NCBI GenBank assembly: GCA_026988125.1
Contig: JALSLU010000148.1
Span: 1 to 34,753 of the forward strand
Direction: 5' to 3'
DNA length: 34,753 bases
DNA from: Sulfurospirillum sp.
Lineage (GTDB): Bacteria > Campylobacterota > Campylobacteria > Campylobacterales > Sulfurospirillaceae
Shown: positions 16,206 through 24,190 of the stretch, in pieces
Layout: every line of letters begins with the position of its first letter
Numbering within the stretch: position 1 is the stretch's first letter
Program-made: the position numbers and the translations under genes
Notes under the pieces: model-generated
The model's database searches: none
Told to the model about the DNA's origin: nothing
Seen by the model: the letters and a program-made list of their open reading frames with translations, nothing else

Positions 16206-16236
16206 AACTGCTACTTTTTATTTAAAAGTAGCAGTT
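16206..16236 (-). terminator. Hairpin at the end of the TRAP permease gene
   Basis: AACTGCTACTTTT pairs perfectly with AAAAGTAGCAGTT (13 pairs, five-base loop). The stem touches the permease stop codon. No long T-run follows on the minus strand, although the stem itself ends in A/T pairs. It probably ends the TRAP transcript or protects its 3' end. Confidence 0.6.
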
Positions 16237-18143
16237 CAATTAAGGGCACCTCTAAAAAATCTTTTTTTAAGAACACCATACCAATGAAAACTTAACAAAT
16301 AAGAGTAGAGATATGTACCAATTACAATTAAAACAAATGTTACAGTAATTTGTGTTGCTGAGTACCACTCATAACTACTACTCTGAGGTATATACTTATA
16401 CATAAGAAAAGCAGGAACATAAGCAAATAAAAATGGACCAAGATATAAAAACTTTGCAAACTTAAATGCATTAAAAGCTGTTTTCCACATATCGGCTTTA
16501 GCTATGGTAGCACCAACAAATGCTGCTATACAAACTGGTGGAGTGATATTTGAGTCTTGAGATAGCCAGTAAATTATAAAGTGTGCTGCTATTGGGGAAA
16601 CACCTAACTCAACTAAAGCTGGAACCGCAATAACAGCTATGATTAGGTATGCTGCTGTTACAGGAACTCCCATACCTAAAACCAGTGATGCCAAAGCAAT
16701 AAGAAGGATCGTTAACCATAAATGACCATCGGCAAGCTGAATTACAATAGAGCTAAAAGAGAATGTCAATCCACTAAATGTAAGCATAGATATAATTATG
16801 CCTATAACCCCAACAGTGGCACCAACAAGCAAGCTTGAGGCTACTCCATCTCTAGTAGCATCTAAAATCATAGAAAAATCCACCTTAGACTCACCCCTAA
16901 AAAATGCCAAAACAAGAGCAAAAAGAAAACTAATTGCCGCAATAGCAAAGTTTGATATATCTATAAAACCGTAAGCATCTGCTGCTAAAAGGATCATCAT
17001 TGCAATCATATGAACCAAGGAATAAATTCCAGCCGTAGTCCAACCTATGAGTATGCAAGATATTATCCCTGCAACTGCTGCATAAGCAGGTGAATAACCT
17101 GCAATCATAAGTATGGTTATAATAATTAAAGGAACAAAATAAAACCATCCGCTTAAAAATATCTTCTTTGCATCCTCTTTTGACTTTTCACCAACTATTC
17201 CCTCTTTTTTTGCTTCATAGTGAACCATAACAAAGACACTAAAAAAATACATTAGTGCAGGAAATATAGCAATAAGCATAATTATATTGTAAGAGATGCC
17301 TGTTAACTCAGCCATTATGAAGCCTCCAGCACCCATAATAGGAGGCATAAACATACCACCGATTGATGCAGCTGGCTCAACTGCACCTGCAACATGAGGT
17401 TTAAAACCAGCCTTTTTCATTAGCGGTATAGTAAATGCTCCTGTTGAGGCTGTATTTGCTATGGCTGAACCCGATATGGAGCCAAATATAGCACTTGCTA
17501 CAACTGCCACTTTTGCGGGTCCACCAGTCTTATGACCAACTAACGCTAAAGGTAGTTCTATAAAAAACTTTTGAGCGCCAGACTTTTCTAAAAATGCACC
17601 AAAAAGTACAAAAAGAAGAACATATGTAGCCAAAACATTTGCCATAATCCCAAATACGCCATCATTTGTGAAAAATATGGTAGTAGATATTGTATCTAAA
17701 AGTCCTCCCCCGCTATGAGCAAAAAGTCCTGGTATATACTCGCCATAAACGCCATACAACATCATAACAACGCCAATGATAACAAATACACCGCCTATAA
17801 CTCTTCTAGCGACTTCTATACCCATAATAATTCCAATAAATGCTATCCATTGATCCAATAGTGTCTCAATTCCAGCTCTATTGTTTATATCAACAAAGAA
17901 AAACATATAATACATAACAGGTATAGCAGCTGCCATCATTAGTAGATAATCTAAAAGTCTTAGCCAAATATTTGAAGACTTATAAATTAAAAAAACAAGT
18001 ACATAGGTAATGAGTACATAGACACTTCTATGATACTGCGTAGCAACTGGTTCAACAAGCGCAGCATATGAGTAAAATACAAGCAGAGCCAATGCCAAGA
18101 GATCAAAAAAAAGCCTCTCAGCCCTATTTAAATTTTCCAACAT
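16236..18143 (-). CDS. TRAP transporter, TAXI family fused permease (4TM/12TM)
   Basis: This 635-residue inner-membrane protein is the fused small and large (DctQ-DctM-like) subunit found in TAXI-type TRAP systems, which use an ion gradient instead of ATP. The four N-terminal helices are followed by a typical large subunit. Family segments are GAFLEKSGAQKFFIELPLALVG, SAIFGSISGSAIANTASTGAFTIPLMKKAGF, AVEPAASIGGMFMPPIMGAGGFIMAE and LGMGVPVTAAYLI. It follows its receptor gene by 89 bases, which hold a hairpin. The extreme C-terminus FFRGALN is written by a repeat sequence and may be a recent tail. Substrate is unknown; TAXI systems are commonly linked to glutamate or other small organic anions. 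Confidence 0.93.
   Translation of the reverse strand: MLENLNRAERLFFDLLALALLVFYSYAALVEPVATQYHRSVYVLITYVLVFLIYKSSNIWLRLLDYLLMMAAAIPVMYYMFFFVDINNRAGIETLLDQWIAFIGIIMGIEVARRVIGGVFVIIGVVMMLYGVYGEYIPGLFAHSGGGLLDTISTTIFFTNDGVFGIMANVLATYVLLFVLFGAFLEKSGAQKFFIELPLALVGHKTGGPAKVAVVASAIFGSISGSAIANTASTGAFTIPLMKKAGFKPHVAGAVEPAASIGGMFMPPIMGAGGFIMAELTGISYNIIMLIAIFPALMYFFSVFVMVHYEAKKEGIVGEKSKEDAKKIFLSGWFYFVPLIIITILMIAGYSPAYAAVAGIISCILIGWTTAGIYSLVHMIAMMILLAADAYGFIDISNFAIAAISFLFALVLAFFRGESKVDFSMILDATRDGVASSLLVGATVGVIGIIISMLTFSGLTFSFSSIVIQLADGHLWLTILLIALASLVLGMGVPVTAAYLIIAVIAVPALVELGVSPIAAHFIIYWLSQDSNITPPVCIAAFVGATIAKADMWKTAFNAFKFAKFLYLGPFLFAYVPAFLMYKYIPQSSSYEWYSATQITVTFVLIVIGTYLYSYLLSFHWYGVLKKRFFRGALN
16238..16259. 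repeat. 17-base repeat, copy 2, inside the TRAP permease 3' end
   Basis: AGGGCACCTCTAAAAAA at 16243-16259 is identical to 3704-3720, and AATTAAGGGCACCT matches 19961-19974. On the minus strand it encodes the last residues FFRGALN of the permease and lies directly next to the terminal hairpin. Confidence 0.55.
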
Positions 18144-18173
18144 CGAAAATTACCTCTAATTTAAAATAAAGAA

Positions 18174-18201
18174 CTCCCCAAAGGTTATTCCTTTTAGGGA
18201 G
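18174..18201 (-). promoter_or_regulatory. Intercistronic hairpin between TAXI receptor and permease
   Basis: CTCCC/GGGAG and AAAGG/CCTTT form a two-part stem in the gap between the receptor stop and the permease start. The placement repeats that of the livK-livH hairpin, suggesting partial termination or mRNA stabilisation favouring the receptor. Confidence 0.5.
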
Positions 18202-18232
18202 CAAAATAATTGACCAAATAATTAGATACTAA

Positions 18233-19198
18233 CTACTTAAGTACACCTTTTTCTTTCCAAAATCTAATTGCACCAGGATGGAGTTCAAGCTCAGATGTTC
18301 CTTTGATTCCACCCTCTACGCTCATCTGCTTAGCAGTTTTTTTGATAGCAACCATATGCTTTAACCCCTCATCAGTAAATATGGCCTTTAGCATCTTATA
18401 TACTACATCAGCAGGAACATTCTCATTTGCAATCCATAAAGCAGAGTCTTGAAATGATTTTATATCACTGTTTTGACCTCTATATGTTTTTGCCGGTATA
18501 GTTATAGGACTATAAAATGGATACTCTTTTAAAACACCAAACTTTTGTGCATCTGTATAAACATTTATAAGGTCTATATCATTTTGTTGTGCTGCTTGAA
18601 TTACCGCTGCCGTAGGATAACCTGCAAATACCCAAAATGCGTCCAATTGGTTATTTGAAAAAGCCGCAGCAGCATTGTTATAACCTAAAAACTCTGGCTT
18701 CATCTTATCCCAAACACCGATTCCTTTGAAAAATCTCTCTGCATTTGCAGCTGCACCAGAGCCTCCCTTACCAACACCAACTTTCTTACCAGCCAAATCA
18801 GCAGCTGACTTTATACCTGAACTCTTTTTAACAATAAGCTGAGCAGGTGCGCCATAAAGGTATGCTACAGCTTTAACACCTTTGTACTTTCTATTGTCTT
18901 TTGGTGAAAGCTTTCCTTGTGAAGCAAGGTAGGTATCTCCTGCATACGCTATTGCAAAATCTGCTCTTTTTGCACTTACCAGTCTAACATTTTGAACAGA
19001 ACCGGCTGATGCACTTACATTAATCTTTGCATCTATGACCTTGTTGTCATTTACATACTGACTAATACCTGCTGCAAAATACTGAAATGTTCCACCTGAT
19101 GGACCACCTGAAAATTTATACATCTTTGCAGATACAGCCGTAGTTGATACCATTGAAATTGCAACTACCGTACCTACTGTTGCTAACATTTTTTTCAT
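18233..19198 (-). CDS. TAXI family TRAP transporter solute receptor
   Basis: This 321-residue periplasmic binding protein has signal peptide MKKMLATVGTVVAISMVSTTAVSA. The mature start KMYKFSGGPSGGTFQYFAAG is the family signature. Further typical stretches are ADFAIAYAGDTYLA, LIVKKSSGIKSAADLAGKKVGVGKGGSGAAANAE (given here in part) and DAFWVFAGYPTAAV. The C-terminal LELHPGAIRFWKEKGVLK is also characteristic. It delivers its ligand to the permease encoded downstream. The start follows AAGGAG. A plausible -10 (TATAAG) lies near 19245 on the minus strand. Confidence 0.94.
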   Translation of the reverse strand: MKKMLATVGTVVAISMVSTTAVSAKMYKFSGGPSGGTFQYFAAGISQYVNDNKVIDAKINVSASAGSVQNVRLVSAKRADFAIAYAGDTYLASQGKLSPKDNRKYKGVKAVAYLYGAPAQLIVKKSSGIKSAADLAGKKVGVGKGGSGAAANAERFFKGIGVWDKMKPEFLGYNNAAAAFSNNQLDAFWVFAGYPTAAVIQAAQQNDIDLINVYTDAQKFGVLKEYPFYSPITIPAKTYRGQNSDIKSFQDSALWIANENVPADVVYKMLKAIFTDEGLKHMVAIKKTAKQMSVEGGIKGTSELELHPGAIRFWKEKGVLK

Positions 19199-20062: not shown

Positions 20063-20439
20063 GGGGTTGATTTGGCTTCGACAGGAGTAGTTTTTAGCTT
20101 ATGGCTGCATGTCGGAAGTGAGGATCTTCCGTTAGACAAACCTCAAACAAATAACTGCTAACAACAGTAACTATCGTCCAGCTTACGCTGTAGCGTAAGT
20201 TTAACTAACTTTTGGACCGCTTCCACACTCAATTCTGCCTGAGGGTGATTTTGGAAGTGTCATAGATATGGCAGATATACTTTGGCACTGCCTCAAGCCA
20301 AAGCGAAGTTCTGAGGCTCGCTTCAAATAGCTTTGTTGGTTGAGCGAATTGAAGCTAAACACAATCAACCATATCTAAGCATGTAGAGGTCATAGGTGGC
20401 TACTTCTGGACAGGGGTTCGATTCCCCTCAACTCCACCA
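20063..20439 (+). ncRNA. ssrA: Transfer-messenger RNA (tmRNA)
   Basis: This one-piece tmRNA of 377 bases rescues stalled ribosomes with SmpB. The 5' end GGGGTTGATTTGGCTTCGAC and the 3' end GGGGTTCGATTCCCCTCAAC followed by TCCACCA form the alanyl-tRNA-like domain. The tag reading frame runs from GCT at 20157 to TAA at 20196-20198 and encodes ANNSNYRPAYAVA. This resembles Campylobacterota tags (ANN...PAYA) but ends in AVA rather than AKAA. Several internal inverted repeats fit the pseudoknot ring. It has its own promoter upstream. Confidence 0.97.
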
Positions 20440-20509: not shown

Positions 20510-21241
20510 ATGAATCTTTTTAAATTGCTACTTTTGACTTTTTTACTCTCTTCATCTCTACTTGCTTTAGAAGATGATAACTTTTTAGAAGATGAGTTTG
20601 GTGAGCCAATGAGTTATGAAAGCTATGATCCTTTAAAATCTTACAATATACAAATGACAAAATTTAATGATTTTGTATATATGCAAGTCTTTAATCCTAT
20701 CTCAAAAATGTATACTAAAATTACCCCAAAAAAAGTCAGAGTATGCATCTCTAATTTTTTTTATAACTTGGCATTTCCAGTGAGATTTATAAACAATATA
20801 CTTCAATTGAAAATTAGAAACTCTATTGAAGAGAGTGCTAGATTTGCTATAAACTCCACTTATGGGTTAGGAGGTTTTTTTGACTTGGCTACAAATGAGG
20901 CAAACTTAAAAAAACACAATGAGGATTTTGGACAAACTCTTGGTTTTTATGAAATTAAAAATGGGGTATATATAGTTTTACCTCTGCTTGGTCCATCAAA
21001 TCTAAGAGATAGTTTTGGATTATTGGTTGATTATGGTTTAAATCCATTAAATTATTCTGCTATAAGAGATGGATATAATCTCAGTAGAAGCTCTTATAAT
21101 CTAATGAGTGGGTATAATTATCTCAATGAATTTTCACTTCATATCAAAGAATATGAATCTATAAGAAAAGATTCGATAGACTTGTACATCCTTTTAAAAA
21201 ATATGTATGACCAAAGAAGAGAAAAACTCATAAAGGAATGA
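20510..21241 (+). CDS. mlaA: MlaA/VacJ family outer-membrane lipid asymmetry protein
   Basis: This 243-residue protein is the outer-membrane part of the Mla pathway, which removes misplaced phospholipids from the outer leaflet. The family core is clear: DPLKSYN, FNPISKMYTKITPKKVR, RFAINSTYGLGGFFDLA, EDFGQTLGFYEIKNGVYIVLPLLGPSNLRD and DYGLNPLNY. The N-terminus MNLFKLLLLTFLLSSSLLA is a signal peptide, but no lipobox cysteine is present. Unlike E. coli MlaA it is therefore not an obvious lipoprotein. It is first in an operon with mlaC (four-base gap) and an MMPL-type permease, the same order as C. jejuni Cj1371-Cj1373. Confidence 0.93.
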   Translation: MNLFKLLLLTFLLSSSLLALEDDNFLEDEFGEPMSYESYDPLKSYNIQMTKFNDFVYMQVFNPISKMYTKITPKKVRVCISNFFYNLAFPVRFINNILQLKIRNSIEESARFAINSTYGLGGFFDLATNEANLKKHNEDFGQTLGFYEIKNGVYIVLPLLGPSNLRDSFGLLVDYGLNPLNYSAIRDGYNLSRSSYNLMSGYNYLNEFSLHIKEYESIRKDSIDLYILLKNMYDQRREKLIKE

Positions 21242-21245
21242 TCGG

Positions 21246-21812
21246 ATGAAAAACATACTTTTTTTAGTACTATTTATTGCAAGTTCACTTTTTGGGCTTC
21301 AAAGAGAAGAGATAGTTCCTATAATGACAAGCAAAATTAATAAAGCTACCGAAATTTTAAGAAATAAAAATAATTTATCGATCGAGGAGAAAGCAAAAAA
21401 AATTTTTTCAATGCTTGATGAAGTTTTTGATTATGCTCTTATGGCACGACTTAGCCTGGGAAAAACAAACTGGAAAGCTCTGAACAAATCTCAAAAAAAA
21501 GAATTTATAAGAAGATTCAAAGAACATTTGAAACGCTCTTTTATGGATAAACTTGTTTTGTATAAAGATGAAAAAACAGAGATATTGGAGCTTAAAAAGT
21601 ATAAAAAAAACAGATTGTGGCTAGTTACTCAGCTAATTGGAAACAAGAACAAATATAAAATAGTCTACAAATTTTATAAATCCAAAAAGAGCGGATGGAT
21701 GGTCTATGATCTAAATATTGCTGGAGTTAGTTTGATTCAAACATATAGAGTTCAATTTAGCGATGCCCTAAAAAGTGGTACATTTGAAGATCTTTTAAAA
21801 AAACTTAAATGA
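21246..21812 (+). CDS. mlaC: MlaC/Ttg2D family periplasmic phospholipid-binding protein
   Basis: This 188-residue protein has signal peptide MKNILFLVLFIASSLFGLQ. The mature part fits the Tol_Tol_Ttg2 family: ARLSLGKTNWKALNKSQKKEF, RFKEHLKRSFMDKL, then KIVYKFYKSKKSGWMVYDLNIAGVSLIQTYR. In this family a single lipid is held in a pocket and shuttled between MlaA and an inner-membrane complex. Its stop overlaps the next start by four bases (ATGA), so the following permease is probably its partner. Confidence 0.93.
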   Translation: MKNILFLVLFIASSLFGLQREEIVPIMTSKINKATEILRNKNNLSIEEKAKKIFSMLDEVFDYALMARLSLGKTNWKALNKSQKKEFIRRFKEHLKRSFMDKLVLYKDEKTEILELKKYKKNRLWLVTQLIGNKNKYKIVYKFYKSKKSGWMVYDLNIAGVSLIQTYRVQFSDALKSGTFEDLLKKLK

Positions 21813-24190
21813 TTGAAAAGCTTTATAAAAATTTTATCTTAAAGTATCCTATATTTACACTTTTTTTACTATCTATCTTTATTAGCTTTTTAGCTTACAA
21901 CTCTTTAAAACTTAAAGTCGATGCTTCTAGTGATACAATAGTTTTAGAAAATGATGCAGACTTGAGCTATTTTAAAAAAATTAGCAAAGATTTTGAAACT
22001 AATAACTTTTTAATAGTAGCTTTTACTCCCAAAAATAATCTGCTAGATGATAAAACTCTAAATACAATTAAAAGCTTAAGCAAAGAGCTTGAAACTTTAA
22101 ATCTCACAAAAAGTGTAACATCCATACTAAATGTACCTATTTTGATCTCTTCAAATTTAGAGTTAAAAGAGTTGAGCGACAAAGTTCCCACTCTTGAAGA
22201 TAAAAAGATAACTAAAGAGATAGCTAAAAGGGAGTTTTTAACAAATCCACTTTATAAGGAAAATTTGGTTAGTTTAGATTTTAAAACTACTGCAATCATT
22301 ATAAACCTAAAAGAACAAAACTCCATAGATAAAAATAATCCAAAATATAAAGAGATAAAAGATTTTAGAAGAGAGCAGAATCATAGATATATATCAAACA
22401 TAAGAAAAATTTTAGAAAAATATAAACATAGTGGAACACTTCATTTAGGTGGAGTGGATATGATAAGTGATGATTTAGTTACTTTTGTCAAAAGAGATCT
22501 CATAGTTTTTGGTAGTGCTTTAAGCTTTATGTTAGCCTTAGTACTTTGGTTTATATTTAGGCAATTAAGATGGATAATTATTCCAATTTTTGTATCTTTT
22601 ATTTCGATTATTTCAACTGCAGGTCTTCTTGGATTGTTTGGATGGGAAGTCACAGTGATTTCATCAAATTTTGTAGCACTGCAACTTATTATTACCCTCT
22701 CAATCATTCTTCATTTAATTGTTAGATATAGAGAACTGGTTGAAAAAGGGAGCTATAAAACTCAAAATGAACTACTTTTAGAAACAATTAAATCTAAAAT
22801 ATCACCATCTTTTTTTGCAGTTTTAACTACTGTAGTAGGATTTAGTTCTCTACTATTTTCAAATATCCTTCCTGTTATAAACTTGGGCTGGATGATGAGT
22901 GCGGGTATATTTATATCACTCATACTATCTTTTATACTTTTTCCTACAATAGTAGTACACTTAAAAATTAAAAAAGCTAAAAAAACATTAAATGAGAAAC
23001 TTTCCCCAACAGAGTATTTTAAAAACTTAGTACTAAAACATAACAAAGCAATTATTTTTGCTTCACTATTTGTAGCTCTTTTTAGTATAAGTGGTGCTAG
23101 TAGATTGATCGTAGAAAATAGCTTCATAAACTACTTTGTAAGCTCTACAGAGATCTATAAAGGAATGAAAATCATAGATGAAAAATTGGGAGGTACTACT
23201 CCTTTAGATATCATAATTAAATTTAAAGAAGAAAAAAAAGAAACAATTACTCAAGAGGACGAGTTTTCTGAATTTGAAGATGAGTTTGAAGCTGAAAAGA
23301 CCAAAGAACAGTACTGGTTTACTCCCGCAAAGTTAGAGTTGATTAAAAAAGTTCATAACTATTTAGAATCAAAAGATGAGATTGGATATGTTGGAAGCTT
23401 CTCAAATCTTTTATATATAGGCAAAAAGCTTAATCATAACAAAGAGCTAGGTAGTTTTGAATTGGCTTTAATCTACTCTAAACTACCAAATAGATTTAAA
23501 AAAATCATAATAGACCCATATCTAAATTTAGAAAAAAATGAAGCAAGATTTGCAACTAGGGTTATAGATTCAAACCCAAAACTAAGAAGAGACAAACTAA
23601 TAAAGCAGATTGATAAAGACTTAGAACAAATTGTAGATAAAAATTTTGCAACTTTCAAACAAACAAACTTAATGATACTTTATAACAATATGCTCCAATC
23701 ACTATTTAAATCACAAATTGTTACTTTAGGATTTGTTTTGGTTTTGCTATTTATTATGTTCTTAATTATATTTAAATCATTAAAGATTGCTCTTATTGCG
23801 ATTTTAACAAATACATTAAGCATTAGTGTTATATTTGGTTTTATGGGCTGGCTTAATATACCACTAGATATGATGACAATTACTATTGCTGCGATTAGCA
23901 TGGGAATTGGCGTTGATGATACAATTCACTATATACATAGGTTCAATGATGAGCTTAAAGTTGATGGAAACTATGAAGAGGCTATGAAACGCTCACATAG
24001 AAGTATAGGAAATGCTATGTACTATACCTCAATAACAGTCATACTTGGTTTTTTAGTACTGGTTCTATCAAATTTTATTCCAACAATCTATTTTGGACTT
24101 TTAACAGTAATTGCAATGTTGAGTGCGCTTCTTGGCTCCATGGTTTTACTTCCAAGACTTTTAATAAATTATAAACCCACAAAAGCTTAA
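21809..24190 (+). CDS. MMPL/RND family transporter, probable lipid exporter or importer
   Basis: This 793-residue RND-superfamily protein has two halves, each with one helix, a large periplasmic loop and five helices. TM1 is YPIFTLFLLSIFISFLA, and TM7 starts near KAIIFASLFVALFS. The proton-relay region in the second half is intact (ISMGIGVDDTIHYIHRF). The matching site in the first half reads LQLIITLSIILHLIVRY, so both aspartates are replaced there. Related proteins include HpnN and MmpL, which move lipids. The tight coupling to mlaA and mlaC suggests it handles phospholipid in place of, or along with, the MlaFEDB ABC complex, which is not in the window. Confidence 0.9.
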   Translation: MIEKLYKNFILKYPIFTLFLLSIFISFLAYNSLKLKVDASSDTIVLENDADLSYFKKISKDFETNNFLIVAFTPKNNLLDDKTLNTIKSLSKELETLNLTKSVTSILNVPILISSNLELKELSDKVPTLEDKKITKEIAKREFLTNPLYKENLVSLDFKTTAIIINLKEQNSIDKNNPKYKEIKDFRREQNHRYISNIRKILEKYKHSGTLHLGGVDMISDDLVTFVKRDLIVFGSALSFMLALVLWFIFRQLRWIIIPIFVSFISIISTAGLLGLFGWEVTVISSNFVALQLIITLSIILHLIVRYRELVEKGSYKTQNELLLETIKSKISPSFFAVLTTVVGFSSLLFSNILPVINLGWMMSAGIFISLILSFILFPTIVVHLKIKKAKKTLNEKLSPTEYFKNLVLKHNKAIIFASLFVALFSISGASRLIVENSFINYFVSSTEIYKGMKIIDEKLGGTTPLDIIIKFKEEKKETITQEDEFSEFEDEFEAEKTKEQYWFTPAKLELIKKVHNYLESKDEIGYVGSFSNLLYIGKKLNHNKELGSFELALIYSKLPNRFKKIIIDPYLNLEKNEARFATRVIDSNPKLRRDKLIKQIDKDLEQIVDKNFATFKQTNLMILYNNMLQSLFKSQIVTLGFVLVLLFIMFLIIFKSLKIALIAILTNTLSISVIFGFMGWLNIPLDMMTITIAAISMGIGVDDTIHYIHRFNDELKVDGNYEEAMKRSHRSIGNAMYYTSITVILGFLVLVLSNFIPTIYFGLLTVIAMLSALLGSMVLLPRLLINYKPTKA

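Follow-up and report, generated by a model that had tools for sequence, protein, structure and literature searches.

In this study, we analyzed a stretch of 34,753 nucleotides from Sulfurospirillum sp. (Campylobacterota; contig JALSLU010000148.1, hereafter the window), in which mlaA, mlaC, and the gene of an inner-membrane protein of the MMPL/RND type lie in a row. Phospholipid return from the outer membrane is modeled on the Mla pathway, which is taken to need the MlaFEDB ATP-binding cassette (ABC) complex. We believe that the trio in the window is probably a self-contained intermembrane phospholipid shuttle, a variant of Mla in which MlaC has the RND/MMPL protein as its partner in the inner membrane, in place of MlaFEDB. 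The linkage of the genes and their independence from MlaE are well supported, and the docking of MlaC through a motif shared by MlaA and the MMPL protein is a strong hypothesis drawn from the sequences. The common motif of the MlaA linker and the MMPL loop is what is new here.

The phylum sample comprised 200 genomes of Campylobacterota (Sulfurospirillum, Arcobacter, Campylobacter, and others). MlaC was found in 107 of them, one copy each, and a strong orthologue of the MMPL protein was present in exactly the same 107 genomes. The mlaA gene stands directly before mlaC in 107/107 MlaC-bearing genomes and the MMPL gene directly after mlaC in 101/107, an arrangement that is far beyond chance. In the window, mlaA and mlaC are separated by 4 bases (21242-21245), and mlaC and the MMPL gene overlap by 4 bases (ATGA, 21809-21812), which bears out the tight packing described in an earlier sequence-only reading of this DNA. 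The MMPL gene does not follow mlaC in five genomes of one genus (f1/g2) and in G139; in all six it lies elsewhere, and the proteins form a single clade that branches within the operon family, well apart from other HAE3 proteins. In the genus with the relocated MMPL gene, mlaAC is flanked by trpA, HPt, panB, and ruvB, the same genes as around the operon of the window. In one genome, G126, the operon MMPL and the relocated type occur together (L143 4565-7042 and L144 6423-8909), a hint that the relocated clade has spread laterally.

MlaE was found in 194 of the 200 genomes. About 90 genomes, Helicobacter-type included, have MlaE without MlaC or MMPL, and in most of those sampled, mlaE-F-D is followed by a small lipoprotein gene. 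Four genomes have mlaAC-MMPL without MlaE (judged by gene content only): two are single-contig complete genomes (G175 and G122), and two are drafts, which count less (G174 and G089). In G175, murJ lies right next to ruvA, and the region contains no masked bases; the same two genes flank the mlaEFD-lipoprotein set in its relative G026, and the loss of this set from G175 is a clean excision. The only MCE protein found in G122 is an 887-aa LetAB-type multi-MCE protein encoded after LetA-like genes (L342 1198-3861). Another candidate, G046, was rejected as an MlaE-less case because the region is masked (N).

The MMPL alignment was scanned against 84,980 species genomes, giving 80 loci in Campylobacterota, Desulfobacterota, SAR324/Lambdaproteobacteria, Nitrospirota, and Planctomycetota. 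The mlaC gene adjoins the MMPL gene in 61 of the 72 loci having upstream DNA, and mlaA lies before mlaC in 45 loci (A-C-M) and after the MMPL gene in 11 (C-M-A). No MlaE match was found in 9 of 28 genomes checked, including 4/4 of SAR324/Lambda; most of these are metagenome-assembled genomes, and single absences are weak. Loci with the MMPL gene alone were rejected as evidence of MlaC-less genomes, since MlaC was found elsewhere in 12/12; in Desulfonema magnum, it is encoded in an mlaE-F-D-C operon away from the MMPL gene.

The linker that joins the MlaA signal peptide to the conserved DPLxGYN start contains the motif F-[DE]-x-[DE]-[FY], exactly or nearly so (in the window, LEDEF), and E29 and F30 are nearly invariant in 30 MlaA. 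The loop between GGTxPLD and YWF in the second periplasmic domain of the MMPL protein carries the same motif (FEDEF in the window). In the AlphaFold2 (AF2) model, this loop is the sole segment of the MMPL protein with a predicted local distance difference test (pLDDT) score below 50, and a short helix covers the motif; the MlaA linker is likewise modeled with low confidence and a short helix. The motif was present in 92/96 MMPL-linked MlaA (83/87 with the MMPL gene in cis and 9/9 in trans) and in 105/105 linked MMPL loops (94/94 in cis and 11/11 in trans), and the relocated MMPL of f1/g2 and G139 keeps it. It was found in 0/4 MlaA from genomes without MlaC and MMPL (genes on L145, L146, L147, and L148), in 2/22 ABC-type or canonical MlaA (0/16 for the plasmid-collection controls among them), and in 2/7 MMPL loops where MlaC lies elsewhere, as in Desulfonema magnum. 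The motif tracks MlaC-MMPL coupling and is lost where the coupling is absent. The best 30-mer for the MlaA linker in its own MMPL was the motif loop in 82/94 genomes. The linker-loop score had a mean of 37.3 within the same genome, compared with 31.5 for permuted pairs (0/5000 reached it) and 25.1 for residue-shuffled loops; within Campylobacterota alone, it was 36.3 against 31.7 for permuted pairs (0/5000). The same motif on MlaA and MMPL suggests that MlaC docks on both. On a Roseomonas plasmid (L307 3239-6651), an MMPL gene immediately precedes mlaA, with dxs-like and polyprenyl synthetase genes close by, and this MlaA is without the FEDEF motif.

The MMPL protein carries MMPL domains (PF03176) and the RND fold, as in the HAE3/MMPL type of the RND superfamily. 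Its closest solved relatives by sequence are HpnN (E 1e-17), and the closest folds in a Foldseek search with the AF2 model are MmpL5/4/3 (TM-score 0.70-0.73), HpnN (0.67), and NPC1. The mycobacterial MmpL3/4/5 are RND transporters of lipids or drugs, but they have approximately 13% identity to the window protein and different partners, and their Asp in transmembrane helix 4 (TM4) is absent here. The closest solved structures of the MlaC are MlaC/Ttg2D-type. HpnM and HpnN belong to the same two superfamilies as the MlaC and MMPL proteins of the window, whereas the two proteins here are paired with MlaA, and their equivalog scores are far below the cut-offs (106 bits vs 751.9 for HpnN and 71 vs 160.1 for HpnM). 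One alternative keeps the coupling and differs in direction: the MMPL protein may load a lipid or another amphiphile onto MlaC, to be passed to MlaA and the outer membrane, like HpnN with hopanoids. Hopanoids depend on HpnN to get to the outer membrane (PMC4337730), and HpnM gives the MlaC here a better score than E. coli-type MlaC does. However, hopene cyclase (PF13249) was found in 0/200 Campylobacterota genomes, and the mlaA mutant of C. jejuni produces extra vesicles, which were taken as a sign of lipid accumulating in the outer leaflet (PMC6549495), so that we regard this export path as a tentative second choice and, on balance, unlikely. Hopanoid transport as such was rejected for the phylum because of the missing cyclase, and for the same reason phospholipid is the likely cargo. 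Because of the known role of MlaA and the excess vesicles of the C. jejuni mutant, we lean slightly toward retrograde transport, just on the favorable side of even, with anterograde transport as the lesser but still sizable possibility.

Studies have shown that in E. coli, residues F118-E119-D120-x-E122 of the MlaD beta6-beta7 loop dock MlaC, and lipid transport depends on each of F118, E119, and D120 (PMC11289387). The motif of the window and the phylum resembles F118-E119-D120-P-E122 of E. coli MlaD (residues 118, 119, 120, and 122 of the comparison sequence agree with PMC11289387). E. coli MlaA recruits MlaC via its acidic C-terminal tail (D243/D244), using K84/R90 of MlaC (PMC10719372), and the footprints of MlaA and MlaD on E. 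coli MlaC overlap, two partners sharing one cleft (PMC10245069). The E. coli system, whose MlaA (PF04333) and MlaC (PF05494) families are the same as those in the window, far above cut-off, also has a single shuttle whose partners in both the outer and the inner membrane carry acidic bait (PMC10719372, PMC11289387, PMC10245069). It differs in that the inner-membrane partner here would be the RND/MMPL protein, the trio is retained without MlaE, the bait would lie in the N-terminal linker of MlaA instead of the C-terminal tail, and MlaA is mostly unlipidated. The MlaA of the locus family stop at the last helix, without an acidic C-terminal tail, and the 16 control MlaA run a median of 31.5 residues further. 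Acidic disordered linkers are common, and the shared motif may be such a generic linker or may bind some other periplasmic protein, but we consider this doubtful: the match score falls from 37 to 25 on shuffling of the loop residues, the motif disappears where MlaC is missing or belongs with the ABC, and it resembles a proven MlaC dock.

The sequence-only reading found no mlaFEDB genes near the locus, and this was confirmed; a search of the genome found one mlaEFD-type ABC set on another contig (C77 of G000), consisting of mlaE, mlaF, a long mlaD (MCE protein, 323 aa), and a PqiC-like lipoprotein gene (PF03886). Its MlaE (L002 2702-3829; 375 aa) has an N-terminal STAS domain, which points to an MlaB-like part fused to MlaE, in contrast to the stated absence of mlaB in epsilonproteobacteria (PMC6549495). 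Judged by its composition, the set matches the chimeric Mla-Pqi type. It resembles Brucella Mpc, in which a PqiC-like lipoprotein replaces MlaA and which works without MlaA or a MlaC homologue (PMC12436622), unlike the locus of the window, to which no such set belongs. In Veillonella, an elongated MlaD bridges the envelope, and MlaA and MlaC are lacking (PMC10665443). The MlaEFD-lipoprotein ABC of this genome would be a separate bridge-type system. BLASTP of its MlaD against E. coli MlaD was uninformative, and MAFFT and hidden Markov model alignments were used instead; in these, the MlaC-docking FED loop is absent, with GGSNESPLL at the beta6-beta7 position, and the F equivalent to F118 is absent in all Campylobacterota MlaD aligned. 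No FED motif was found in the MlaD or the PqiC-like lipoprotein of the genome. Because the FED bait is missing from MlaD but present on the MMPL protein, we infer that the latter takes the place of MlaD.

These results modify the earlier proposal that MlaA and MlaC are coupled to an MMPL pump instead of the ABC complex. The coupling gained strong support from the perfect co-occurrence, the linkage across phyla, the survival without MlaE, and the shared motif. The words "instead of" need correction, as the genome does encode an MlaEFD ABC, but this ABC has its own lipoprotein and is lost or kept independently. In a conventional Mla pathway, MlaC would deliver lipid to this distant MlaEFD, and the MMPL protein would be an operon neighbor with another substrate. 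This is the published interpretation for C. jejuni (PMC6549495), and the ABC is present in this genome and in nearly all those sampled; nevertheless, we find it improbable, since MlaC tracks the MMPL protein in 107/107 genomes and is kept in two complete genomes that lack MlaE, the PqiC-like lipoprotein and long MCE protein of the ABC are like those of systems lacking MlaA and MlaC (PMC12436622, PMC10665443), and its MlaD is without the docking FED. A dual service, in which MlaC exchanges lipid with both MMPL and MlaEFD on separate outward and inward routes, would suit the coexistence of both systems in most MlaC-bearing genomes and the two partners that E. coli MlaC reaches via one cleft (PMC10245069), but it has little in its favor when the MlaD and lipoprotein of the genome lack the FED motif and each system is lost independently of the other.

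For the trio as an MMPL-based shuttle, we propose that MlaC ferries lipid across the periplasm. MlaC would dock alternately on two copies of the acidic-aromatic F-x-x-[DE]-F motif, one at the outer membrane in the N-terminal linker of MlaA and one at the inner membrane in the disordered periplasmic loop of the MMPL protein. The docking surface is probably the positively charged cleft of MlaC, used in E. coli for the acidic tail of MlaA and the FED loop of MlaD. The MMPL protein may take lipid from MlaC or give lipid to it, and the proton gradient would drive this step, with Asp703/His707 in TM10 as the likely coupling site. We give about even weight to the wider view that a proton-driven Mla pathway exists in at least five phyla, Campylobacter included, in which a FEDEF-type motif on MlaA and the RND pump docks MlaC, MlaFEDB is not the partner, and two elements of the E. 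coli system, the MlaD FED loop and the acidic MlaA tail, belong to the same docking code.

Several points weigh against our explanation. The permutations of linkers and loops ignore relatedness, and the regular expression for the motif was set after seeing the alignments, which makes the motif counts descriptive and not blind. Draft genomes may miss mlaE. MlaC yielded no acceptor residue specific to MMPL: K96, which looked group-specific, was rejected as it aligns with K102 of E. coli. The proton-driven route suggested in the sequence-only reading is partly supported by the invariant Asp and His of TM10, but TM4 is without the canonical Asp and has Ser/Ala in its place, along with the invariant His302. 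In C. jejuni, mlaA is the only gene of the trio studied, and it was read as part of a normal Mla pathway (PMC6549495). We did not find MlaC/VacJ-MMPL coupling discussed in a search of 5.4 million open papers, subscription papers and preprints being outside its scope.

The features of the locus are listed in Table 1. The signal peptide of the MlaA in the window is hydrophobic, and no Cys precedes the DP anchor at residue 40, which bears out the missing lipobox of the sequence-only reading. This is the common state in the phylum: the lipobox is absent from most Campylobacterota MlaA and present in some Sulfurimonas-, Sulfurovum-, and Arcobacter-type genomes and in Desulfobacterota. The lipobox is a variable trait among relatives and lies outside the mechanism. 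A tmRNA gene (20063-20439, tag ANNSNYRPAYAVA) lies directly 5' of mlaA. On the minus strand, 16236-19198 encodes a TRAP-type transporter membrane protein of 635 aa with an adjoining TAXI-type solute-binding protein, both named from sequence.

Table 1. Coordinates of the mlaA-mlaC-MMPL locus and its features in the window.
Feature	Position	Strand	Evidence
mlaA, MlaA/VacJ family, 243 aa, Sec signal peptide without lipobox	20510..21241	+	PF04333 E 4e-64; AF2 pLDDT 88
MlaA signal peptide, residues 1-19, probable signal peptidase I site LLA/L	20510..20566	+	sequence; cleavage inferred
MlaA putative docking motif LEDEF, residues 26-30	20585..20599	+	low-confidence linker, short helix 25-29 (AF2)
mlaC, periplasmic lipid-binding shuttle, 188 aa	21246..21812	+	PF05494 E 2e-36
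MMPL/RND inner-membrane protein, 793 aa	21809..24190	+	PF03176 E 4e-28; AF2 pLDDT 86
MMPL periplasmic domain 2, disordered loop, residues 477-498	23237..23302	+	AF2, pLDDT < 50
MMPL putative docking motif FEDEF, residues 489-493, predicted short helix 487-496	23273..23287	+	
MMPL TM4 His302, invariant in 56 homologues	22712..22714	+	
MMPL TM10 Asp703 and His707, invariant in 56 homologues, probable proton relay	23915..23929	+	

If an RND pump is the partner of MlaC in Campylobacter, Arcobacter, Sulfurospirillum, Desulfobacterota, SAR324, and Planctomycetota, the current readings of Mla in C. jejuni would name the wrong inner-membrane partner. It would also mean that the proton gradient can power Mla-type lipid traffic and that MlaEFD has a separate role in these bacteria. 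The motif shared by MlaA and the MMPL protein makes the mechanism of the hand-over directly testable with peptides.

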